A stretch of 64,000 nucleotides of DNA. Source: Halisarca cf. caerulea (lineage: Eukaryota > Porifera > Demospongiae > Chondrillida > Halisarcidae). Shown one piece after another: positions 7,520-22,890 of the stretch. The stretch is taken from NCBI GenBank assembly GCA_963170055.1, contig CAUJGJ010000444.1, positions 6,985,618 to 7,049,617 of the forward strand. The letters run 5' to 3'. Positions within the stretch are counted from its first letter, which is position 1, and each line of letters starts with the position of its first letter. Both the position numbers and the translations under genes were made by a program. Below the pieces are notes generated by a model that was not told the DNA's origin, did not search any database, and saw only the letters and a list, made by a program, of their open reading frames with translations.

Positions 7520-8465
7520 AGCTTACCACAACCACAGAACCCTACTGTTGTCCTCACTGTGATCTCCAGACCACTGTAAAAGAACTAAACACGCTCAAAG
7601 CCGAATTCACCCAATTCATCTCTTGAAGAGCTTTCTAACCGTCAACAAAACGACAGTTCCACCACCCAAAAGCAGAATACTCCTCAGATCAGCCAAACTT
7701 GCCTGCCTCTAGCCAACCTTCGAAAAACTAGTGTCCAGACAAATCCCACTTAGCCCTCAACATCCACTAGCATCACCGCAGGTTCTCCATTCGTCCCTCA
7801 ATCTCAACTATCGTCCACTACCTCAAACGACAAAAGGTTCAACCTAGTAATGTACGGAGTTCAGGAAAACCCAAAAGGAACTCCCAGACACATTCGTAAC
7901 AGAAAAGATCTTTTTTGGCATTTGCCTCCGTATCCTGAAAGACATCTATCCAGACATATCTGGCAACCCAGTTTGCGACTGCACACGCCTTGGTAAATTC
8001 TCCGAAAGCAGCTCCAAACCTCGTCCCATCTTGCTCACATTCGTAGCCTCAATAGACGTATCAAACGTCCTGTCCAACAGAAAAAGACTATCTGCCCACA
8101 ACGGAATTGCAATCAAGCCCCAGCTAACATTACAAGAACGAGAAGTAGGGTCTTTTCTCCTAAAAGAACGTCGCTCCCTACTATCAACTGGAATTCCCTC
8201 ATACCAGATCAGACTTTCGACATCAACGCTCAAAGTAACGCTCAATGTAAACAATGGAGTTCATGGGAAGGTCATAAACAGATCTTTCATCCCCAATGAA
8301 GACATAGTAGAAATACAAGCGCACAGCCCAACCCTACCTCCTGAACACTACCATGTGCACGCTGATATCATTATGGACACAGCTTCCTCCCCAACTGCTC
8401 CATCACCTGCCAAAACTGTTCCTACTAGCTCTAATGCCCAGCCCACTCCCACCATTCATCAATGA
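7520..8465 (+). pseudogene. LINE ORF1 protein (RRM-type)
   Basis: The piece starts with a zinc-finger/coiled-coil-like segment (CPHCDLQTTVKELNTLK). It then has a typical ORF1 RRM core, RFNLVMYGVQENPKGT, near 7838..7885. After frame changes comes the second RRM half and C-terminal domain in the frame 8031..8465 (LTFVASIDVSNVLSNRKRLS). Such proteins bind the element RNA. At least two frameshifts separate the parts, so this copy cannot make an intact protein. Confidence 0.65.
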
Positions 8466-8902
8466 CTACCCTCCGATCCCATCAGAGCTGGCCTTTGGAA
8501 TGCACAAAGTCTAAACAGAAACTTAATTTTCTTCAATCATTAACCTACAGCAAATCATTAGACATCATATCAGTAACTGAAACCTGGCTTTCAGCACATA
8601 CATACGACCATGAAATCCTACCATCAGATTACACTGTTTACCGTCGAGACAGACCAAACAATGGGGAAGGAATCCTAATAGCCACGTTGAATTGTATATC
8701 TTCCCACCTGTTTCTAACTCATCCGAATGTAGAAATGATTCTCATTGAAATCACTCAACCACTCCAAGCTCATATCTGCTGCCTACAAATCCCTCCGTCT
8801 AGCCTTGAATCATACATGCTAGAATTACTACATGCCTTCAACTCCCTGCCCCGTAACACTCTACTCTTAATAAATGGTGATTTTAACTGCCCAAGACATT
8901 GA
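8462..8902 (+). pseudogene. LINE ORF2 endonuclease domain
   Basis: The start of the APE-type endonuclease is visible just upstream in another frame (AGLWNAQSLNRNL). Then follow the diagnostic SVTETWLS, YRRDRPNN and INGDFNCPRH blocks. ETW and GDFN carry the acidic metal- and phosphate-contacting residues that nick target DNA in this family. The frame stops at 8902, before the SDH-type end of the domain. Confidence 0.75.
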
Positions 8903-9020
8903 CTGAGATACCCTTTCAGGCTCAAACCATCTCAATTCAGTCCTATGCGACACACTATTCGAAATCAACCCAACCCAACTAGTTAGAGATCCCACATACA
9001 TTCACGGCAACATTCTGGAC

Positions 9021-9778
9021 TTGTTAGTTACTAACCAACCATTCGTTTATACTAGGTCTATAAAGCTAATAGAGGGCCTTCTGGCTCCGATCAGAAAAAT
9101 TAGAGAAAAGAAGAAACCTTCACCGTGGATCAACAAGCAAATAAGAAAAGAAATGGATTGTAGAGATAGGCTGTTCAGGTTCCATCGGCGTAGTCCCTCA
9201 GCAGCTTCATGGGACATCTGCAAGGCCCAGCAAAATCGTGCCGTCTGGCTCCATAGAAAGGCAAAAATAGATTACTTCCAACAGCTTCTGCTTAAAAAAT
9301 CACATCCATCAGCCCTTTGGAACACTCTCCCCATTGCAACTTGCTCTTCTGTATCCACCGACAACTGGTCTTCTTTTGCTTCCGATCATGACTCCATTTC
9401 TAACACTCTAAACAACCACTTTGCTTCTGTAAGTTCAACTGTCCCATGTCTGCCTCTGCTTCCCCTTCTTCTTCCTCTTTGCCCTCCCCTCCCTCCTCCA
9501 TGCTCTCCCTTGCAAAAACTACCCCTGCTTGGTGTGAACAGGCTCTTATCAAGTTAAAACCTAGGTGTACTACTGGTCTTGACCAACTTCCCCCTGTTGC
9601 TCTTATTGCTGCTCGGTCCATCATCTCCTACCCTCTTTCTTCTATCATCAACTGTTCCATTGCTTCTTCCTACTTTCCCACCCAGTGTGCGGCCATCAAA
9701 CCACTCCACAACCCTCTTCCCCTTCCAATCTGGCTTTTGTCCCTCCGCCATGTTGTAGATGTAGCGTGTAAAAATTAG
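9021..9778 (+). pseudogene. LINE ORF2 linker and N-terminal RT region
   Basis: Frame 9021..9557 has the RT-preceding linker pattern PSPWINKQIRKEMDCRDRLF and KAKIDYFQQLL. Another frame (from about 9500) continues with CTTGLDQLPPVALIAA, matching the stretch just before RT motif 1. Similarity ends near 9765 at a deletion breakpoint, so no catalytic aspartates are present. Confidence 0.7.
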
Positions 9779-9968
9779 GCTCACGAATCTATGAGAATAT
9801 TCAACTTACCACATTGGAATTGTCCATATACCCTTTCGGATACTATGAAGAAAATGGCGTCCTTGGGAACGTTTTTTTCCCCCTCCCTTTACCTCCCTTA
9901 GGACGGACTGGCATTAACTTCCATTATATTATGTAGAATTATTACTTTTATGTTCAATTTGACTGCAC

Positions 9969-10025
9969 CTTTTTAGGGGCTGCCTGTGGCAGCCCCCACG
10001 AGTTTTTAACTCGAATTACTTGTTT
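9969..10025. mobile_element. Minimal remnant of the GGGGCTGCC hairpin MITE
   Basis: The 5' end of the MITE family (TTTTTAGGGGCTGCC, hairpin GGGGCTGCC-TGT-GGCAGCCCC) is fused directly to its 3' end (CGAGTT-TTT-AACTCG hairpin, then GAATTACTTG). The interior found in full copies at 52996..53440 and 53693..54055 is absent. This could be an internal deletion product or the minimal mobile form. Confidence 0.65.
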
Positions 10026-10192
10026 TTAATGTTGATGCTAATTTTCATTGTCGATCGCCCTACATGCTCGTGTGTGTGGGTGTGTGCGCGCACATGTGTG
10101 GCACCAAGACCGAGCCGGTCGTCAAAACGGGCAGATCAAGCAGGGAGATGAGAGAACAGAGCGAACAAGCGGGGTGGGGACGTAGAAGAGCT

Positions 10193-10222
10193 ATTCACTG
10201 CAAAATCTGGTCTGTTTTACTG
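10193..10222. repeat. Left TSD and terminal inverted repeat of the CACTA element
   Basis: ATT (10193..10195) is followed by CACTGCAAAAT, five bases CTGGT, then CTGTTTTACTG. The right end reads the same on the other strand except for three mismatches in that middle stretch. Confidence 0.88.
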
Positions 10223-10320
10223 TGTTTTACTTTACGTGGTACCTTTACACTACCATAAGTTTACCATGCTTTCCCCAATGCCCCTGTTTTACTGCCTACT
10301 ACCAACATGGTAAATCTTGT
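10208..10320. promoter_or_regulatory. Left subterminal repeat cluster
   Basis: Short motifs GTTTTACT, TTTACC and GGTAAAT recur in both orientations within about 120 bases of the left end. The same motifs recur at 20993..21130. In CACTA elements such subterminal repeats are the binding sites of the TnpA-type protein; the role here is inferred. Confidence 0.5.
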
Positions 10321-10736
10321 ACATCCTTTGAGATCAGAAGCAGTTTATGAATATCATTAATATTGACCACCAAATATGAATATTTAAATTTTGCATGAAA
10401 GCATTCAACTGGCGTATGCAAATTAGAGCATAATGTACATGTATATTCATACTCCATATGTATTTAGTCAATGCATAGTAACTGTACTAATTCGAGTATA
10501 ATAATATGCTGACAGTATACCTTGATACATATAATAATCAATACTGATGCATGATATATACTAAACTATATTAATTACCAATCATTCTGTATGTCTACAG
10601 TATTCATGCTTACACTTACAAGCTCCTAACTGTACATACAAAAGTGTACTGCCACATTTGCAATAATAACATGTTCTGTGCCCAAACCTGACCATTTCAA
10701 TCACAGTATACCAGAAACCCTCACAATAGGATCTAC

Positions 10737-10876
10737 CCCTTAAGGGGAGGAGTGACCAGGGATATGTACATTTATGGTTACAAGGTAAGTTTTGGAGGGA
10801 AAAATCTCCCCCCTTAAGGGGAGTGACCAGGGATATATACATTTATGGTTATAAGGTAAGTTTTGGAGGGAAAATT
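10737..10876. repeat. Two-copy tandem duplication (about 73-bp period) upstream of the kinase gene
   Basis: CCCCTTAAGGGG (a perfect palindrome), GAGTGACCAGGGATAT and TTTTGGAGGGAAAA occur in the same order at 10737 and 10810. The block lies within 60..200 bases of the kinase start codon and could hold promoter elements. The interval 10320..10737 is AT-rich with no gene. Confidence 0.8.
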
Positions 10877-10933
10877 GGACCACTAAAATAGCCTGAAATG
10901 CTCATATTTCACCATTTTGACTGATTGTAAGCC

Positions 10934-12056
10934 ATGGGTCGAAAGAGAAGAGAGAACCAAAAGAAGCAACTTCAACGACTAAGGACAGAACTCCGAAATG
11001 CTTTGGAGACAAATGCACAGAAGCAAGAGAAGTAAGAGTTTTGTATGTTTTCTTTAAAATTGATATCTGGTAATTGCATTCCACTTCATGCCTGCATGTA
11101 CTAGATATGAGCGTACTTTTAAAAACTACATGGTGTTTCTTGTTACCAGGACACCCTATTTAGACAGGATGCACAATGCCTCAGAGAAAACAGAAATAAA
11201 ATTAAAGAACAGGAAACGAAGGCCAACACCATATAGAAAACACGCAAAGCGCATGATCGGGGTCACTCCACGAAGAAGTATGCACATGGATGTGAATGTT
11301 ACACACATTCCTGAAGAGCAATTACAAACAAATGGGAACAAAAGCATGCAAGAGCTGGGAGAAGGCACATTCGGTCATTGTCAAGTCAAAATGTACAAGG
11401 GGTATGCAGTATGTGCTAAATACATGAAAGACAGTGTGCTGGAGCATCATCTGGTAGCTGAAGCTAGGATTTTGGCAGTAGTGGGTGGGCATAGGCACAT
11501 TCCTCATTGTTTTGGGGTATGCCTGGCAGAGAGGGCTCTGATAATGTCATTGCACACTGTAGATGGAGCTCCTTTAAACTATGACCAAGCTCTAGATAAG
11601 AAGGGCTTTTCAGCTAAGGACTTCCTTAGACTGCTCATAGAAATTGGAGAAGCACTAAAGCATATCCATGAGCAAAAAATACTGCACAATGACATCAAGT
11701 TGAATAATGTAACATTGGGCAAGGTAGAAGGTGGAGTGGTACATGCACACTTGGTTGACTTTGGAAAAGCTTGCTATTCCGAGTCAGGAAAAAGGTACAT
11801 CTTATCTAAGGCAGAAATTGCTACATATAAGAAGCACTACCCTCAAGTTGCCCCAGATTTACGCGATGGACTGGTGCAACAAAGCCAAAAGAGTGACGTT
11901 TATGCATTTGGGCGCATTGTCAAAGTGGTTGTTCAAAGGAAACTATCACGTGAGGCACCCCTGTATGATCAGGTCATCAGTGCAAGCATGCGGTATGATG
12001 CAGCTGAAAGACCAGACATCAATACTGTGCTCACTTTCCTAAGGAAAAAGATTTGA
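10934..12056 (+). CDS. Protein-kinase-like protein, two exons (10934..11031, 11150..12056)
   Basis: Exon 1 starts at GCCATGG and ends at a GTAAGA donor; exon 2 follows a TTACCAG acceptor. The split codon AA|G keeps the frame, giving about 334 residues. Exon 1 encodes a basic Gln/Arg-rich helix (MGRKRRENQKKQLQRLRTEL). The kinase fold spans about residues 100 to 330: GEGTFG nucleotide loop (103..108), VCAK with the ATP lysine (about 123), a helix-C glutamate (about 137), catalytic loop HNDIKLNN (212..219), DFG (236..238), VAPDL in place of APE, and SDVYAFG (281..287). The Asp and Asn of the catalytic loop are present. The usual HRD arginine is Asn, so it is probably active but not regulated in the classical RD way. 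It sits inside the CACTA termini upstream of the transposase, on the same strand. The substrate is unknown. The frame is intact, which argues against a passive passenger. Confidence 0.85.
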
Positions 12057-12190
12057 GATTGAGAGTGTTTGAACAAGGTGTACATTCATTATTAATTATA
12101 GAAAGTTGAGACATCAGTGTGGTATTTTTTTCATTGATTGCACATGTAATAGAATTAATTTTGTATAAATTCATGACTGGACACAATGCA

Positions 12191-12990
12191 TGTGTTACGG
12201 GTTGGCCGCTACATGCTGTAGTGTGCCGACTGGATACAGACGTGTTACGGGTTGGCCACTACATGCTGTAGTGTGACGACTGGACACAGACATGTTACGG
12301 GTTGGCCACTAGATGCTGTAGTGTGACTGTTACGGGTTGGCCACTAGATGCTGTAGTGTGACGACTGGACACAGATGTGTTACGGGTTGGCCACTACATG
12401 CTGTAGTGTGACGACTGGACACAGATGTGTTACAGGTTGGCCGCTGCATGCTGTAGTGTGACGACTGGACACAGACGTGTTACGGGTTGGCCACTACATG
12501 CTGTAGTGTGACGACTGGACACAGACATGTTACGGGTTGGCCACTAGATGCTGTAGTGTGACTGTTACGGGTTGGCCACTAGATGCTGTAGTGTGACGAC
12601 TGGACACAGATGTGATACGGGTTGGCCGCTGCATGCTGTAGTGTGACGACTGGACACAGATGTGTTACGGGTTGGCCGCTACATGCTGTAGTGTGACGAC
12701 TGGACACAGATGTGTTACGGGTTGGCCACTACATGCTGTAGTGTGACGACTGGACACAGATGTGTTACGGGTTGGCCGCTACACGCTGTAGTGTGACGAC
12801 TGGACACAGATGTGTTACGGGTTGGCCGCTACATGCTGTAGTGTGACGACTGGACACAGATGTGTTACAGGTTGGCCGCTACATGCTGTAGTGTGACAAC
12901 TGGACACAGACGTGTTACAGGTTGGCCGCTACATGCTGTAGTGTGACGACTGGACTCAGATGCATGTGTTATGGGTTGGCCACTGTTGCT
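12191..12990. repeat. 50-bp minisatellite array 1, about 16 units with higher-order structure
   Basis: Exact 50-base periodicity of a unit containing TGTTACGGGTTGGCC and CTGTAGTGTGACGACTGG. Two units (from about 12293 and 12528) are shortened to 35 bases by the same deletion and lie 235 bases apart. A multi-unit block was therefore duplicated after the deletion arose. The array begins about 135 bases after the kinase stop codon. Confidence 0.95.
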
Positions 12991-13589
12991 CTATTCCATT
13001 CAGACTATAATATGTATTAACTCCAGTTCTGTATGCATGCATGGGTAGCTACCAACTTCCAGTAATCAAATTAGAGAGGCTAGCTAGGTGGTCTGCTTCC
13101 CAAAGACTGGGTTGGGCTTAGCTAAGGTGTTAGGTCCCAGGAGAATCAGGGAGCTTCTTCAAATTAACAGTATTATAGGGGAACAAGCTACATAGTATAT
13201 GTAATAGATTCTATATAATAACCAACTTTCTGTATTATGCTATAAGGCTTGAATGTAGACTTTATATTATGAGACAAATTTTGAGAGTAGACACCTGAAC
13301 TGCATGCAAGGTACCTCCAGGCAGAATGATGAATCTACTTGATTCTGACATAATGAAAATGAAGTCACATACAGGCTAGTGACCTGGAAGCCTACACAAG
13401 TCCATAATAATATACAATGAGGCTTCACTCCTGAATCCTTCAGGCTCCACTTCTGAGGCAATATTGAAATGTTGAATTGAAGGTTAGGGATGGGTACTTA
13501 TTAAGATATGGCATATTGCTTCAAGTTGAAATTTTTGTTTACTTGATCCACACCTTAGGCACACTACATTGGAGATGAAATTTGAATGA
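12991..13589. repeat. Spacer between arrays, partly duplicated after array 2
   Basis: The stretch from about 13047 (CTTCCAGTAATCAAATTAGA, then AGGCTAGCTAGGTGGTCT and TTAGGTCCCAGGAGAATCAG) recurs from about 13920. The array plus its flank were therefore duplicated as one unit of roughly 900 bases. No coding sequence was seen. Confidence 0.8.
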
Positions 13590-14060
13590 ACTCACTGTAG
13601 TGTAATGACTGGACATGTGCACAGACGTGTTACGAGTTGGCCGCTGCATGCTGTAGTGTGACAACTGGACACAGATGTGTTACGGGTTGGCCGCTGCATG
13701 CTGTAGTGTGACGACTGGACACAGACAAGTTACGGGTTGGCCGCTGCATGCTGTAGTGTGACGACTGGACACAGACGTGTTACAGGTTGGCCACTACATG
13801 CTGTAGTGTGACGACTGGACTCAGATGTGTTATGGGTTGGCCGCTGCATGCTGTAGTGTGATGACTGGACACACATGCATGTGTTATGGGTTGGCCACTG
13901 GTTACATGGGTAACTGCCAATTTCCAGTAATCAAATTGGAGAGGCTAGCTAGGTGGTCTATTTCCCAAAGACTGGGTTGGACTTAGCTAAGGTGTTAGGT
14001 CCCAGGAGAATCAGGGAGCTTAGAATCTTAATTCAAATTAACTGTATTATAGGGAAACAA
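13590..14060. repeat. 50-bp minisatellite array 2 (about 6 units) and duplicated flank
   Basis: The same 50-base unit as array 1, from about 13590 to 13905, followed by the second copy of the flank to about 14060. It lies 270 bases before the transposase start codon, so it sits where the transposase promoter should be. Bases 14060..14330 hold no other feature. Confidence 0.9.
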
Positions 14061-14330
14061 ACTGCACTGCATGTAGTAGTTTCTCCATTGTATCCAACAT
14101 TCTATACTATTCCACCATAGTACTCAACTAGGTTTTATATTGTGGGATATAAAGTGCAATGATTGCATGCACAAGGACCTCCAGGAATAAGATGAATCTA
14201 CTTAAACTGGGCACTTGCAATTGCACTAAATAAAGAAATAAGCTAAGGATCATATAAAAGTGCAAGGAGCTAGTGAATTCTAGCTGTATTTCACCATAGA
14301 GGTAGTCTTGGTAATCTATGTACATCTATA

Positions 14331-17300
14331 ATGCTACCCAAAAAGCGTCTTCATTATTGTGGGCACTGCAGTAGACACCTCAGTCACAGCGCATTCTGGG
14401 AACACCGTTGTAAGTACTTCAACAGCACCACCAGGGAGTGGATCCAGAGCAACAATACTTCAGAAGTGATACCTCCTCCCTTTGTGCCCAGTACCTTCAT
14501 TTCACAGCAAAATACTAGTGGAAACATACAGGATGAAGAAACTATGCCAGGTATATTGGTTTGTAAAGTAGGGGATATTTTGTTGTACTACAACTATTAG
14601 TAAACATTTTCATAGGCAAAGCAGACACACACTTGGTCTATCATTAATTGCAGTGTAATTAAATCAATTCACGATCAAGCAGTTCCAACTCATCATCTTA
14701 CATATACAGTTCTGAAGATTCACTTGACCAAGAAGAGCTTTGGAGTAGTTACAATGTGCAGAGTGATGTAGAATTGGAAAGCCCCATGAACTCAGATCTG
14801 GAGGTACATACATACTTCAAGGCTAAATACATATACGAATGATTAATGTACTGTCATGCTTAACAATATTAATATTATAGGAATTTATTACAATCACATA
14901 ATTATAGGAATCTGACTTAGAGACTGCAAGTGATACTGAGGACAAGCTTCCCTACAAGTATGAACGGTGCTTACAAAGTTACAGCATTTTTATGGCTGCA
15001 ACACAAGCTCATTACTCACTATCAGCAAGTTGTATGCAGACTCTTTTGTCCATCAATGGAAAATACCTTAAAATGTTGGCTAAGCTGTCAGAACACGACA
15101 TGCTACAAAAAGTGGCCACACAGCACCCATCAAATGCAAAAAGAATGTGTGTGCTAGCCGATATTAATTGTGATACTTATACAACGTATGCAGTATGTCC
15201 AGACTGCAATGTAATCTACAGTGAACAATTTCTGGAAAAAGCTAACCAAGTATGTTTTATATTTGCCTTGAGTATCCTCAAATAACATATGTATCACTAT
15301 ACATTCTCCCTTTTACACAGCCCACTGTGAAATGCTCAAATGTGCCATATCCACAACACCCTCAGCAATCACGAAGGGGAGCTTGTGATGCTGTTGTAGC
15401 ATCATCCAAACCATCCCCAAGTGGGACAATGTTATTAAAACCAGTTCTTACATATGTATATCATTCAATCTCAGCTTCCTTGGCAAGGGTATTACCAAGA
15501 ATGTGTTCACAAATTTTACCAATGGATAACACTGGCGAAGCAACTCATCTGTTTGACATTACAGATGGCAAAGCCATCAAATCTCAGGTATGTACATAAT
15601 AACTATACAAACTTAAAAGAGACATTATCATGATGTTAGAAATGGTGAAGACCTCATGTACATAGATACTGTATGCGCTTTAGTTTTCGTGGGGTGTATA
15701 TTTCGTGGATTTTGTCTTTTAGCGATTTTTGCATTTTAATATTCGCGGACGGCCATGTTTTGCCATTGCACAAGAGCCCGATCTAAATTTTCGTGGGTCT
15801 AAACTTCGCAGATGGCTTCCAATCCGCGAATACCGCGAATATTAAACCACGCGAAAATTAAAGCATATACGGTAGTGAATTGCTCACTTGTTATTTATAC
15901 TCATTTGTCACTGCTGCACATCCAAGTTCTCCAGCATGCACTAACAGTAACTCTCCAATCAATTTGCCGTTACCATTCCAGTATGACCCTACACTGTTGT
16001 TTTGTATATTAGACAGAATTGTATGTGCAGAATATCTGTAATTATACTATTTACTATACTATTACTACAGTATTTACGCTGTAAAAGAATTACTTTAATT
16101 TTTGCTTGCTATTAGGTGAAGTCTCTACCTGATATTCCAGATGTTGCTGGTAGTTATGAAAAAGTTATCATTAGCTTCATCCTGAATGTTGATTGGTTTC
16201 AACCCTACAAGCATACCCACCATTCTGTTGGAGTAGTATATCTATCCATCAATAATTTACCACGGCACTTACGGTATAAGCCCAGTAACATTTTACTCAC
16301 AGGAATTATACCTGGCCCTCATGAACCAAAAGATTTAAACCCTTTCATGGCCCCAATAGTAGAAGAGCTGAAAGAATTTCGAATAGGACAAGTTGTTGAC
16401 AGATTTATCGTACAAGCATTTCTCACGTGCACTGCCAATGACAATCCTGCAGCACGTAGACTTAGCGGTTTTTCTTCATTCTGTTCCTACAATGGCTGCT
16501 ATAAATGCAATAAAGTTTTCCCCAGCAATGGCTTTGGAAAAGGTATGGATTACTCAGGTTATGACATTTCAAACTGGGAACCCAGGACTAAAGAGGCTGT
16601 TTTGGAGTGTGCTGATAGATATCTTCAGGTACGAAATGTGAGCGTTGTGATTTTAGTTTTCTTTCCTATGTGTGACTTGATAGACAGTCTCACACTGCAT
16701 GGCCTATCATAAATATTTCTTCTGTGAACAGTTAGAATAGTCAATTTTGCGAGTAAGTGCAACTACACTTGTACCTGTACTGTATATATAGCACTAAAAC
16801 TATATACAGTGGAACACTCTTAATAGCATACCCCTTAGAATGACAAAAAAAGTATTCCTATATCCTTAGGCTAAATTTTTCATTATTCAAAATGAAATGT
16901 ATTGGCATTATATACAATTGGTAACAATATTCCTTTATCCACAATATTCCTGTAAGTGCTATACTATTAACAGTGTTTCACTGTATTGTACACATAATGT
17001 GTATACTACATGTCACGAATCTTGTCTCCTCTCATTATGTAGAAACAATATTCCTTTATCCACAATATTCCTGTAAGTGCTATACTATTAACAGTGTTTC
17101 ACTGTATTGTACACATAATGTGTATACTACATGTCACGAATCTTGTCTCCTCTCATTACGTCATACAGGCTAAAACGCCAGCTGAGAGAAAGCAGATTGT
17201 CCGTAATACTGGCTGTCGGTATTCAGTACTAAACTCCCGAAGCCTACCAGGTTTTGACCCAATAGAAGATACAATCATTGATCCTATGCATACCCTCTTT

Positions 17301-18566
17301 CTTGGAATAGCCAAGAAAACAACGCATCTTTGGATTGAAGAGGACACAATTACTGCAGCACAATACAATAACATACAAAAGATTCTGAATTCAATTCATG
17401 TTCCACGGGGTATTACACGTATTCCATCTAAAATATCCAGTGGTTTTAGCAACCTAACAGCTGACCAGTGGAAAATATGGACTACATTATATTCTACTTA
17501 CTGTCTTCATGCCATTTTACCTACTGAACAAATGGATATGTATGTGAAGTTTGTGAAAGCCTGCTGTTTAATGTGTAGTAAGGTGATAACAGAAGACCTC
17601 TGCCAGGAAGCCACTCAGCACATGGTGGACTACTGCACACAATTTCAGTCCCTCTTTGGATCGTCAGCTTGTGTTCCGAACATGCACTTTGCGTGCCACA
17701 TACCTGATTGTTTACGTAGATTCGGACCTGCCCAAGGATTCTGGCTATTTAGCTTTGAACGGTACAATGGGATCCTTGGAGAAGCACAGCTTAATCATAA
17801 GAACATCACAGTGCAACTAATGCGCCATTTTCTGAGGATATCCGAGACAGAGGAGAAGACTGAGAACATCCCAAATGACATCCAGGAGGTAATTAATTTA
17901 GAGAGTACACCACTATACAAAAATAAACGTATTTCAAATAGTGTTCAGGCATCGTTGAACCCAGTAGGCATCACCAAAAATCGATACTATCTTCAAATTG
18001 GATTGACGCGGCATATAACAGATTTTTGTGACTCCAAGTACAATTCTTTGCTAAGAAACCCAGTCCAATCTTTCCTCCATGACCAAGAATTACGCCAGAT
18101 AGAGCAACTCATTGCCAACATTTCTTCTCATAGTGATGTAAAAGTAGCAAAGGAATGCTCAATTTCAAAGAGATGCACGTATGGTGAGATAACTTATGAT
18201 AGCTGTGAGAGTGATAGCAAATGTTGTTATTTCTATTCAATTCATGATCACCAAGGAGTTTCAGTCGGGAAATCAATCGAGTTTATCCAGATAACAGTAA
18301 TATTGGATTGCCATGTGACAATAACCATATCCAGAGTGCACTGGCTTAGGAAATTCAGCGGTTCCCAGTTACCCTTCCCTTGGGCAATTTTTCATAACAC
18401 GGATACAGATTCCAGTAGCAGCTTCATACCCATGTCGCTTATTCTTTCTCGTGCTGCCCATAAAGAATTACCAGATCATGATTTTCAACCCAATTTAATT
18501 GCCATAGCACCAGTTGATTCTATTGCTGATGAAAGTATTCTGCGATGTTTGAATTTTTTCCGTTGA
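14331..18566 (+). CDS. Plavaka/tnp2-type CACTA transposase, six exons
   Basis: Exons by eye: 14331..14550, about 14683..14803, 14908..15249, 15321..15587, 16116..16628 and 17169..18566, roughly 950 residues. The phase-0 junctions from exon 2 to exon 6 all fit; I could not match the phase of the exon 1/2 junction. Exon 1 encodes a Cys/His zinc-finger-like N-terminus (CGHCSRHLSHSAFWEHRCKYF) of the kind found in this family. Exon 4 ends DITDGKAIKSQ, matching the family's DIYDGxxW block. Exon 5 has VDWFQPYKHTHHSVGVVYLS, NNLPRHLRY and GIIPGPHEPKD. Exon 6 has DPMHTLFLGIAKK, which holds a conserved acidic residue and the MHxLFLG signature of tnp2 transposases. The protein should cut at the CACTG termini and join the element into a 3-bp target. 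No internal stops were seen in exons 3 to 6. Fragments of exon 4 recur at 39480..39900 and 43245..43400. Confidence 0.85.
15667..15874. mobile_element. Small MITE in transposase intron 4
   Basis: The ends are imperfect inverted repeats: TACTGTATGCGCTTTAGTTTTCG on the left (23 bases with few mismatches) and CGCGAAAATTAAAGCATATACGGTA, in part, on the right. The interior has clustered TTCGTGG/TTCGCGGA and CCGCGAA motifs. It lies wholly within the intron between exons 4 and 5, so splicing can remove it. Confidence 0.65.
16917..17160. repeat. 121-bp tandem duplication in transposase intron 5
   Basis: ATTCCTTTATCCACAATATT and the following sequence, including CATGTCACGAATCTTGTC, occur at 16929 and again at 17050 with almost no differences. 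The second copy runs up to the exon 6 acceptor at 17168, so it is recent. Both copies contain identical short ORFs that should not be read as exons. Confidence 0.9.
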
Positions 18567-18942
18567 TTCCAGAATCAGATACATAATATGTAACTGAGAT
18601 TTGTGTACTGTTTATTGACATACGTACATTTTCTTTCATTATTATCCTTTATATAAACATTTACACAATTTACCAGAGAGTATGTAGTACATCACGTTGT
18701 AAGTTTTGTATTAAGTTCTTGTGACAATTGAAATCATGTTTTATATCCAGCAGTGAAAATTCTACCACCATTACGTAATTGCATGGTGATGGCAAAGAGA
18801 ACTTTCTGTGCTTTCAAACATGCATATAATATACCTCTGCATACGTGCACACATAGTTATTGCACATTCTATACAAATATTGCACATAATATGCATACAC
18901 CAGGACACTATTACAGCATACATAAATTAATACGTAAAGTGT

Positions 18943-20763
18943 ATGTCATATAATAGTATAAATTTAGTGTGGGTAAGTACGTTCATATATAACCCTACGA
19001 TGGATCACATGACCCAACAAGAATTCCATTGGCCAATAATGTTTGTGGGCAGAAAAGGAGGGAAGTTTAAGCTCCACCCATAATGGAGGGAAATTTGAAC
19101 TCCGCCCACATCTATCTTTCAACGGGGAGGATAGATCAGCAGTCTCTAGAGTTTAGATCCTAGGCCTATTGAGCACCCCTATACAGTTAGGCATGATGTC
19201 TAATGCTTTTTTTAGAGAAGGACTCAGCAGGAGTACTACTTTACCAAGGAAAGAAAAATACAGGAACAAGAAACAGCTCAAAAAAAAGCCCTACAGCAAA
19301 TCAAGCAACAAGCTTCTGATGTAAGAGAAATAAAGTTTCAACAAACAGAAACAGTGAAACAGTTGAGGCACGAAATTGAGAAACAAACGTCTAAAAATGA
19401 AGAGTTAACAAGGAAGCTTGACGACATAACTAATAACCTGTCAGGAAAAAAAAATACGGCTGTGAAGAAACGTTTACCAGCAAACATAAGTGTGAGTTAA
19501 TAAATACCATGTACTTAGCGCACTACCAGATACCAACAGTTACAACATATGTATGTACACATACTATACACAATATTATTCAAGTCCTACTACATTACAT
19601 CCATGTAGAAGAAGGCAAAGCAAATCCATTCAAGTTTGGATGAGAGTAGACAATTCAAAGCCGATGAAATGTATTAAGTTTACATTCACATGTTCATGCA
19701 CTGTATATACAGTACCCGGAATTAAAGTTAAAACTTTCCATACAGAATCACAAGTACACACAACTCAAGTACAAGGGAACAACTTGAATCTGTGCTTACG
19801 GAGACATGTACCCAAAACTCAAGTGAAGAAATCAAAAGTACAATAGAAAGAATATACAAAGTCTTGCCTTCACCTTTACTTGCATGTTTACGTATAACTT
19901 CCTTGACCACATATTCAGGGTCAGTTACATGCCTGTATCAGAATATTCGGCGAAATCATCGAGAAGCTAAGGCTGACTGGAGTGAGCATAAAGAACAACA
20001 GGCAAAGAGGAGGAGGGTCCGATCTAGACAAAACAGAGTAAGCCCGCAATTAATTAAGGTTACAGTGAATGATAATTCTTCCAAAACTACAATTCATTCA
20101 ATGTGACATGTAGAAATACACTAGGCGATCAAAGCATGTCCTTTCTGAAGAGAAGGATCTGTGGATTCCCCTTAAGGTCACTGACATGAGTGAGGAATCC
20201 ACAGATAGCGAGGACAATGGATTTACAGTGCACAAACCTGAATATCGATCTGAAGGTAAGTATACACATTATTATAATATGGATATACACAAAAAGTTGT
20301 CAAAGTATATATGACCCAAAACTATGCCCATATTTCTCTTTTGTAGATCTCAGTAAATTCCTAGAATACCTTGACAAGAGAGCTATTCTAATTCCAACAG
20401 GGGTAAATCTCATGCTAAAGTGCCTAGACGGCTAGGAGATCCTCAAAACGGTAGCCCTCCTCACCATTTGGCTGATATGCAGTGGATGTTGTGCTATGGT
20501 AAGCTACAAAAATATTACAGCTCATATTCTTTCGACTTTATGTTATATATCTACTTCACATAGACACCACTGAACCAGTAAGGACTTGCAGTCCACTAGA
20601 ATTCAGTGTGCCTGATACTTCTGCTCAGGACTTTGAGGACTCTGAGACAACAAGGCAAAATGTCCTTCAGCCACTCCACTTTGAGACAGATAACGAAGAC
20701 TCAGAGACTTCATTGTCAGACTCTTCTCATATTGACATTGCTGCAGGTCTTAGGAATATTTAA
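18943..20763 (+). CDS. Coiled-coil protein with acidic tail, multi-exon (candidate TnpA-like protein)
   Basis: Likely exons: a possible first exon at 18943..18972 (MSYNSINLVW, donor GGTAAGT, phase 0); 19216..19491 (92 codons, strong coiled coil with KQLRHEIEKQTSKNEELTRK, donor GTGAGT); about 19776..20037 (a helix followed by the basic run QAKRRRVRSRQNR); about 20125..20255 (RSKHVLSEEKDLW, DMSEESTDSEDNGF); 20347..20498 (DLSKFLEYLDKR, then in a shifted frame SHAKVPRRLGDP); and 20564..20763 (very acidic, Ser/Asp/Glu-rich, ending LRNI and TAA). The last junctions agree in phase, but two earlier junctions do not and exon 20347..20498 needs a one-base shift. The gene may therefore be slightly damaged, or my exon borders may be wrong. 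Its place after the transposase inside the same TIRs resembles the two-protein layout of plant CACTA elements. That role is inference. Confidence 0.55.
18999..19125 (+). promoter_or_regulatory. Possible promoter or intronic regulatory block before the coiled-coil exons
   Basis: An ATTGGCCAAT box near 19028 is followed by a short duplication (GGAGGGAAGTTTAAGCTCCA and its near copy) ending in CCACCC/CCGCCC GC-box-like motifs, from about 19058 to 19110. If the proposed first exon is right, this is an internal element; otherwise it is the promoter. Confidence 0.35.
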
Positions 20764-20992
20764 CTCTAATACACGTTCTCTTTATAACTTTACTCCATTT
20801 TGTTACACATCATTGTTTTGTTTGCTTCCATGGCTACTTATTCAAATATGAATATTCAAATATATTCATGATCAGTATAATAATATTCATTAGGAGGCGG
20901 TACCTCATTTGAATCAAGGAGACTGACCTCAGGTCCAGGCTAAAGGTGTTAATATTAATGACATTCATAGTGGATTAGTTATGCATTGTTTG

Positions 20993-21152
20993 TAGTTTAC
21001 TCAGAGTTGGTAAATCTACTTGTCAGTTTACTCTATACTACTGCAATGGTAAATCTCTTGGTACATCATGGTATACTACAGTATACCTTAGAACTACTTA
21101 TAGTTTACTACACACTATACGGCAGTAAAACAGATCATATTTTGCAGTGATT
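20993..21152. repeat. Right subterminal repeats, TIR and TSD of the CACTA element
   Basis: GTTTACT and GGTAAATCT motifs recur several times between 20993 and 21110. The inverted terminal repeat follows (CAGTAAAACAGATCATATTT then TGCAGTG, ending at 21149), and then the ATT duplication at 21150..21152. Confidence 0.85.
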
Positions 21153-22890
21153 GCCGCTCCACATGCCAGTAGCAGACGTAACTAGAAGTGCTCCGACTTA
21201 GAGCACATGCATATACCCTGTGCATCCCCGCATGTAGACTCGATATTGCTACACATGCATGGGCACTTCAGAATCAATAGTTATGTACTGACAAGGCCGC
21301 CCGAACCGGTCTGGTTGGTCAGGCCTGGCCACTCCTCATAGTACTCTTCCTCCAGGCCTGCGTACTGTTTACTTGGTGCCTCTGACTGCTGCAGTTTAGT
21401 CTTTTTAGCCACGTCAATCTGTGATATTCTATTGATTCAGAATGAACCCTTTGCATCTGGGTAATACTAATAGCGGCGGCTCTCAGCCTATATTATATCA
21501 GGATGGCGGTGACCACGTGGTGGTGCATGAGGAGTGAGGAAACTGAAGAGTTATTTCTAGAAATGTATACCTTTACATACATAGTCAGCTACGTGGGAGA
21601 GAGAAGCTCGGGAGGTACGAGAAGGCTTGGAGGTTTGAGGATAATGATGCAAAATGATTTTGAGGACTTAGAAGATACCAGCTGCGCGGCAAGGGCACTA
21701 CACAGCTTGAACCCCCATTTGCACTAGTGGCCAGCTGGTGGGGCCAACAGTAGCTGGAGGAGCTCCTTCTCTCAGCCCTGCCAGAGCCGAAGAATCGACT
21801 AGAGCATTGGTTTTCAACCGGCGCTCTAGTTTCTTCCCAACCGGGAACTCTGTGTGTCCGGGGTACTTAACCCTGTAGCAGACTTACGTTATTGTCGCAA
21901 CATGCATGATTCTTGTAATCTCTTTTGACAATAATGTACGTCCCCAATTATCGTTGCAATAACACCTTATACCTCGATCCCTTCTTCGATAGCTGCAGCT
22001 AAGTACAGATTCGTAATACTCCTTTGCGCTATAGCTCACGTAGGTGGCAAACCTTGCCTGCAGGTGACCTACCTACCCCTCCTCACTTTGAAAGAACGAA
22101 TTTATTCGAGCGATATAAGAGACGCTCCGCACATAAATTTTCAGTAGTTTGGCTGGTAAACAAACTCAGCGTATCGTTCCTAGCAATACATGTAAGCCCA
22201 ACCCAGTATAGCTTTTGTACCCCTGTTGCGCATGCGCGCACGGGGTAATAACGAGGTGATTCCCCTAGCCAATGACATCATAGACAAATGGAGGACAGGA
22301 TCTGGGCTACGCCAGACTATGCCTAGAGGCTCCGCTCCGTCAAGGAGCTTGGCGGGGAAGTGCATATGTATGTGCATGTACCCCCAGCCTGGCGCAGCCC
22401 CCATCCACTATCAGCCCCATTTCGAATTCCCGTCACAGTCTAAATGAAGGGGTAACAAATTACTCAAATCGAAAAGAAATGCAATGAAACCTGTCTGAAA
22501 GACCACCTGTCTATACAGACCACAGTTGACTGAAGTCCGTAGACGACCTCAGTCACAATGATGCACCTCTGCATGCGTGTGGACCACTTGTCTACAGAGA
22601 CCACTGTCAGTGGGTTCTTTGAGTACTGACAAAAATCCAATGCAAGTTAGCTCATGGGTAGCACACGTGAGTATAGCTGTTCTCTCAGCCCTGCCCGAGC
22701 TGATGGAAAGCTGCAGTGCCTGTACTCAACCCACAGCCCGCAGCATATAATCAGCCATCTTGGCCTATCGGAACATAATTATAATAATAATAGTAGATAT
22801 ATAATTCAAGTTGGGAACTCTGAGACCTGGGTACTATTCAAACCCTGTATCGGACTACGCTATCCAATTGTCACACACGTATATTACTTG
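21153..22890. other. No supported gene; weak internal repetition
   Basis: The stretches near 21835..21900 and 22800..22865 share GGGAACTCTG, GGGTACT and AACCCTGTA in the same order, suggesting a small dispersed repeat or SINE-like unit. No A/B-box pair, tRNA fold or protein domain was recognised. Confidence 0.45.

Follow-up and report, generated by a model that had tools for sequence, protein, structure and literature searches.

Most cut-and-paste transposons carry little beyond what their mobility requires, and CACTA elements usually carry a transposase together with a TnpA-type gene. In PMC12730594, EnSpm elements are described by CAC..GTG termini, a target site duplication (TSD) of 3 base pairs (bp) and a tnp2 transposase with D, D, E and C(2)C, H(3-4)H motifs, and Plavaka elements by either TGT..ACA termini with a 2-bp TSD (PlavakaA) or CATCA..TGATG termini with a 2-3-bp TSD (PlavakaB). 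The same paper reports TET/JBP dioxygenases as cargo of fungal EnSpm, Plavaka, IS3EU and other transposons, among which they have passed and which they are thought to help escape silencing; it also reports alpha-kinase genes in the IS3EU elements of rusts (PMC12730594). Here we describe an element, termed W, in a stretch of 64,000 nucleotides from the sponge Halisarca cf. caerulea (assembly GCA_963170055.1, contig CAUJGJ010000444.1, positions 6,985,618 to 7,049,617; hereafter the window). We consider it likely that W is a complete EnSpm/CACTA cut-and-paste transposon, that its protein kinase gene belongs to the element lineage rather than being a chance host fragment, and that this kinase would help the element. 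Together with a 50-bp minisatellite, the kinase makes up a cassette present in two or more dissimilar EnSpm families of the genome. The features of W are listed here in window coordinates; its genomic copies (A, B and C) and relatives (D and E) are described below.

10193..10195, no strand: left target site duplication ATT, read from the sequence
10196..21149, + strand: EnSpm/CACTA element W, 10,954 bp, with the same ends as A and B and ends within 2 bases of those of C
10196..10222, + strand: left terminal inverted repeat, from the inverted match and copies elsewhere in the genome
10934..12056, + strand: protein kinase gene for 334 amino acids in two inferred exons, 10934-11031 and 11150-12056
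12175..12984, + strand: first minisatellite array, 50-bp unit, closely matched by the unit of D and E
13040..13156, + strand: 117-bp block following the first array; a further copy at 13905-14021 follows the second array (94%)
13620..13873, + strand: second minisatellite array, 50-bp unit
14331..18566, + strand: tnp2-type transposase gene, six inferred exons, Transposase_21 match
16923..17158, + strand: tandem duplication of 121 bp inside the last intron of the transposase gene; A and B lack about 119 aligned bases of it
19195..20760, + strand: remains of a third gene, limits approximate, partly coiled-coil-like by eye
21123..21149, - strand: right terminal inverted repeat, from the inverted match and copies elsewhere in the genome
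21150..21152, no strand: right target site duplication ATT, read from the sequence

The preliminary description of this locus had proposed a complete CACTA element, and that proposal is borne out by exact ends, the ATT/ATT duplication and ends common to other copies. The inverted termini are CACTGCAAAAT...ATTTTGCAGTG, and the junctions in the window read ...GCTATT/CACTGCAAAATCTGG...ATTTTGCAGTG/ATTGCC... The arms (10195-10222 and 21123-21150) are 28 nucleotides long and 93% complementary, with 26/28 positions matching, compared with 22-24/28 for the best inverted 28-mer in each of 12 first-order resamples of positions 9000-22500. We searched the genome (194.5 Mb in 454 contigs) with the two ends of the element. 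Positions 10150-10350 gave four matches, namely the window itself and three others, which start at 10196 (two) and 10195 (one); positions 20950-21200 gave the window and four others, ending at 21149 (two), at 21151 (one) and internally (one). The 27-bp terminus, allowing up to three mismatches, occurs at 11 sites, eight of which are the paired inverted ends of W and three copies, while the reversed control pattern occurs at none. Similarity that ran past 10196 or 21149 would have placed the boundaries elsewhere; in A and B it halts exactly at both points. The copies, each with paired inverted ends, are:

C352:439524-450360: copy A
C352:732292-743037: copy B
C412:5649074-5663167: copy C

Between their shared ends, all three have kinase, minisatellite, transposase and third-gene sequence arranged alike, and W and A diverge by 0-3.5%, varying with the region. 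A and B share their flanks, and their two main aligned blocks, flanks included, are 98.2% and 99.6% identical. This insertion with the same flanks is thus seen twice on one 942-kb contig, 293 kb apart. A and B are therefore one insertion, either duplicated with its surroundings (a segmental duplication) or assembled as two haplotypes. Because A and B have the same flanks, W, A/B and C count as three separate insertions. The target duplication of A/B is TAG/TAG. Its flank is itself a repeat; the best relative, C352:223093-223269 (91%), and another, C118:295819-296000 (77%), run through the insertion point without an element, a single TAG standing at the junction of the empty-site relative. We read them as related empty sites of the A/B insertion and not as alleles. 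An empty site for W is absent from the assembly: of the 20 matches, two were its own flanks and the other 18 fell on a dispersed repeat of the right flank, and the junction was spanned by none of them.

The three remaining terminus sites belong to a family of elements of about 380 bp (C1:2482091, C40:3395490 and C312:1269103), with termini like those of W (CACTGCAAATTTGGG..TTTTTTGCAGTG). Its three members are 95-98% identical to one another, and for one of them the 3-bp duplication is exact (TCA). These short elements are probably non-autonomous and could use the same kind of transposase.

Inverted CAC..GTG termini are present throughout, as CACTG..CAGTG in W, A, B and C and as CACAGCGC..CCCTGTG in D and E, and the 3-bp TSD is exact at W (ATT), A/B (TAG) and E (GAA) and inexact at C and D. 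The candidate subterminal repeat TTTAC[CT], counted on either strand, occurs 11 times in the two terminal 250-bp stretches of W versus 14 times in the 10,454 bp between them. As termini, duplication and transposase motifs fit EnSpm/CACTA, we assign W to that group and not to Plavaka, a label that had been attached to it alongside CACTA and that termini, TSD and Pfam results do not support. Membership of Plavaka was considered and rejected, W having CACTG..CAGTG ends and a 3-bp TSD and neither Plavaka terminus type. Pfam holds a model named after Plavaka; none of that name was among the matches of the W transposase up to an E-value of 5.

The transposase had been described as apparently intact, and its reading frame is indeed open once spliced. 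The six exons are 14331-14599 (or -14584), 14710-14803, 14908-15249, 15321-15587, 16116-16628 and 17169-18566, where the junction of exons 1 and 2 was chosen among several frame-keeping GT-AG pairs; with exon 1 ending at 14599, the product has 960 amino acids and no internal stops. Residues 333-450 match Transposase_21 (3.9e-11). This match and the transposase comparisons between copies were made with exon 1 ending at 14563, which has no GT donor; the Pfam match is unaffected, and the corrected ends (14599 or 14584) were re-checked for W only. Under the 14563 model, the B transposase is open, that of A has two internal stops and that of C has frame shifts. A search of the protein collection identified 184 relatives, and among the matches listed one is named as coming from the sea anemone Exaiptasia. 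In an alignment of 21 rows (18 of the 120 listed collection proteins with W, G and C226), the motifs NVDWFQP, NDNPAARRL, CYKC, IIDPMH, HFACH and FSFERYNG align across rows, except that two of the 18 collection proteins are without the first three. DPMH, H(3)H and the Glu are kept in 21/21 rows. The C(2)C positions and two Asp, which we take to be the catalytic ones, are kept in 19/19 rows that have letters there (P0036 and P0037 are without this stretch).

The kinase gene, which the preliminary description did not mention among its three genes, matches Pkinase at 1.3e-20 (frame 11064-12053), and its exon model reads through in W, A and B and is interrupted in C. The closest solved structures are BTK kinases (~1e-11); alpha-kinases have another kinase fold. 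Thirty-three relatives were found in the collection, which holds 5.8 billion proteins, and we aligned ten of these with W, D and E (13 rows). W has a glycine loop (GEGTFG), a VAIK-type Lys (VCAK), an HxD motif (HND), a catalytic-loop Asn (NN) and DFG. The catalytic Asp, the Asn and the Asp and Gly of DFG are invariant in 13/13 rows and the Lys is nearly so (P0004 is without the N lobe); W has the residues that define a typical protein kinase. The motifs IPHCFGVC, HNDIK, VDFGKAC and APDLRDGL are common in this alignment, not invariant. Kinase relatives were absent from the 60 pattern stretches of viral contigs, and 545 stretches of bacterial and archaeal genomes gave six weak loci with 25-43% identity.

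Searching the sponge genome with the kinase gave 52 matches at 49 loci (three second pieces were dropped). The eight best loci (W, A, B, C and four others, D to G) are all linked to elements: seven have a transposase match no more than 15 kb away and the eighth, F, is joined to W-family sequence. After these eight, the score falls from 211 to 71 bits. The loci outside the W copies are:

C369:6674293: D kinase, 55% identical to the W kinase in amino acids
C369:6663970-6682658: element D, sister of E, same termini as E
C40:1165388: E kinase, 55% identical to the W kinase in amino acids
C40:1157072-1173111: element E, 16,040 bp, termini matching at 18/22 positions, TSD GAA/GAA
C412:7130572: F, a broken kinase piece joined to sequence like W 18969-20671
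C412:7430261: G kinase, 54% identical to the W kinase, paired with a transposase

The 18/22 match of the E termini was reached by none of 300 resamples of the left 12 kb (windows starting with C). Transposase identity to W is 33-36% for E and 34% for G. Kinase and transposase point away from each other in D, E and G and share one direction in W, A, B and C. With other termini and a distant transposase but the same kinase and minisatellite, D and E constitute a second EnSpm family. The ends of G were looked for and not located, as CA repeats swamp the search. Directly left of E lies another EnSpm transposase copy (C40:1154920).

Among the other 41 kinase loci, five are within 15 kb of a transposase match, where uniform placement would give no more than 0.41 (P = 6e-5, a significance that is overstated because transposons cluster). 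These five distant loci, near EnSpm transposase matches, are at C369:5742421, 11816836, 516365 and 6089727 and at C226:3054490. Other kinase-bearing transposon families may exist.

Next, we compared the repeat that accompanies the kinase. Consensus 50-bp units of W differ from those of D at 2/50 and of E at 3/50 positions (some columns being near even), though the kinase DNA in front of them is only 69-70% identical between W and D/E. The minisatellite is either constrained or was exchanged more recently than the kinases diverged. Among the matches listed, the array occurs in W, A, B, C, D and E, with a 74-77% relative of 47-bp unit on contig C129. That contig has two such arrays (598913-599850 and 645344-646045), and none of the kinase matches listed is on it. 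In the window (12201-13890), where the unit core is CACTACATGCTGTAGTG, most units contain a perfect or near-perfect palindrome.

In a tree of 25 of the 33 collection proteins and 19 sequences from this genome, the kinases of W, A, F, D, E and G group with own_L019, P0002, P0003 and P0004 in one clade (support 99/94), and a separate group (100/99) holds eight other kinases of this genome. A further group comprises own_L021 to L024, of which L023 and L024 belong to the five loci close to transposase matches.

How W would work can be outlined by analogy with its relatives. Most likely, the transposase would recognise the CACTG termini and the subterminal repeats, excise W and duplicate 3 bp of the target on insertion. 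The kinase gene is probably expressed separately; our guess is that its substrate might be the transposase or a host protein of chromatin or repair, whose phosphorylation would tune transposition or silencing. Because a relative with nearly the same repeat sits in a second, unlike family, the kinase looks like lasting cargo and not an accident. A bolder and tentative version, which we consider less likely than not, is that the cassette is a selfish module moved between animal EnSpm families, in which the kinase would disarm silencing or license transposition and the minisatellite would act as a binding array or escape element, making it an animal counterpart of the fungal TET/JBP cargo.

Selection analyses bear on the view that the kinase helps W from both sides. 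Between families, the W and D kinases have a nonsynonymous rate (dN) of 0.35, a synonymous rate (dS) of 1.67 and a dN/dS of 0.21 over 290 codons, pointing to constraint, and the D-E ratio is 0.28, from six changes. The W-B comparison of the transposase (15 synonymous and 15 non-synonymous changes, P = 0.0005) indicates purifying selection. Several observations weigh against our preferred interpretation. The dS between the W and D kinases is near saturation; the W and B kinases differ by only a few changes, three synonymous and nine non-synonymous, which show no measurable departure from neutrality (P = 0.73); and the ratios of kinase and transposase in the same pair do not differ significantly (P = 0.18). 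Copy C reads ATAT/CACTG...CAGTG/ATATA, with no exact 3-bp TSD (TAT versus ATA), and element D is flanked by TAA and ATA, again without an exact TSD. Lastly, because the third gene is damaged, W may be without a helper protein.

How the kinase came to be in two families can be explained in other ways. Each EnSpm family might have taken up a host kinase independently, in the style of Pack-type elements, as passive cargo that is now drifting. This would fit kinase changes within the W family that are indistinguishable from neutral, the opposite orientation of kinase and transposase in the two families and the broken kinases of copy C and fragment F, but it requires a host gene that already had the array, since units differing at only 2-3/50 positions lie behind both kinases, and the drop from 211 to 71 bits leaves no close-scoring kinase locus outside elements; we regard it as unlikely. 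Somewhat less so, though still doubtful, is a single old capture by an ordinary autonomous EnSpm element, with the kinase merely carried along and later passed on by recombination between nested elements. The single kinase clade and the cassette common to two families agree with this, and EnSpm elements do lie side by side, as the transposase copy adjoining E on the left (C40:1154920) demonstrates; however, the W-D ratio of 0.21 and the kept catalytic residues suggest long-term use, part of it perhaps in a host gene. That kinase and transposase are chance side-by-side insertions, with the inverted repeats bounding a nest and not one element, draws on nothing but the general habit of transposons to nest and is highly improbable given that A, B and C have the same gene order and ends and that W, A/B and C occupy different sites. 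We continue to favour a complete EnSpm/CACTA transposon with a kinase of its own lineage.

The expectation of three genes held for two of them, the kinase (open) and the transposase (open once spliced), while the third is damaged. Relative to A and B, W is missing 34 bp near the start of the third gene, which shifts the frame; C has most of these bases. Separate stops occur in A, B and C, apparently in the same frame, the exons of this gene being provisional. In element E, an open frame (L048:2672-3091, minus strand) resembles the third gene at its end, by eye only. Left of W, the window has three open frames of 155-216 amino acids (7851-9554); positions 8907-9554, which we take to resemble part of a long interspersed nuclear element, have no Pfam match.

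We also considered whether the minisatellite encodes a structured RNA. Good folding of its palindrome, CACTACA-TGC-TGTAGTG, is seen in two stretches of W (z-scores of -3.1 and -2.4 on the + strand, and -2.0 and +0.7 on the - strand), whereas folding is weak in E (-1.1 on +, +1.0 on -) and in the C129 relative (-1.0 on +, -0.1 on -). No Rfam family matches 10100-21250 up to an E-value of 1. A structured RNA was rejected on these grounds, folding being notable in W and not in E or C129.

The occurrence of one kinase in two unlike EnSpm families suggests that phosphorylation may figure in the contest between element and host. The motifs IPHCFGVC, HNDIK, VDFGKAC and APDLRDGL provide a signature for sorting uncharacterised kinases into transposon and host genes. 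Among the papers listed from the open PMC library, no title or opening of an abstract reports an animal EnSpm/CACTA element with a protein kinase, a weak negative with Repbase reports and most subscription papers outside its scope. Cargo genes of transposons have already been published, and what is new here is the kinase in an animal EnSpm element.

Among gene-capturing plant transposons, Pack-CACTA elements resemble W as CACTA elements with captured genes. Their cargo consists mostly of gene fragments in non-autonomous elements, whereas W pairs an open kinase with an open transposase and its kinase recurs in two families. With the EnSpm/CACTA elements (CMC group) described in PMC12730594, W has in common the CAC..GTG termini, the 3-bp TSD and the tnp2 motifs, to which it adds a protein kinase gene and a 50-bp minisatellite. 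Fungal Plavaka elements, as described there, have a distantly related transposase with the same zinc motifs but differ in their termini (TGT..ACA or CATCA..TGATG) and TSD (2 or 2-3 bp) (PMC12730594). The nearest parallel in kind is provided by the fungal TET/JBP transposons, in which, according to the same paper, unlike lineages also share a cargo enzyme and gene order and orientation vary; there, however, the cargo is a dioxygenase, the hosts are fungi and the kinases are alpha-kinases in IS3EU elements (PMC12730594).

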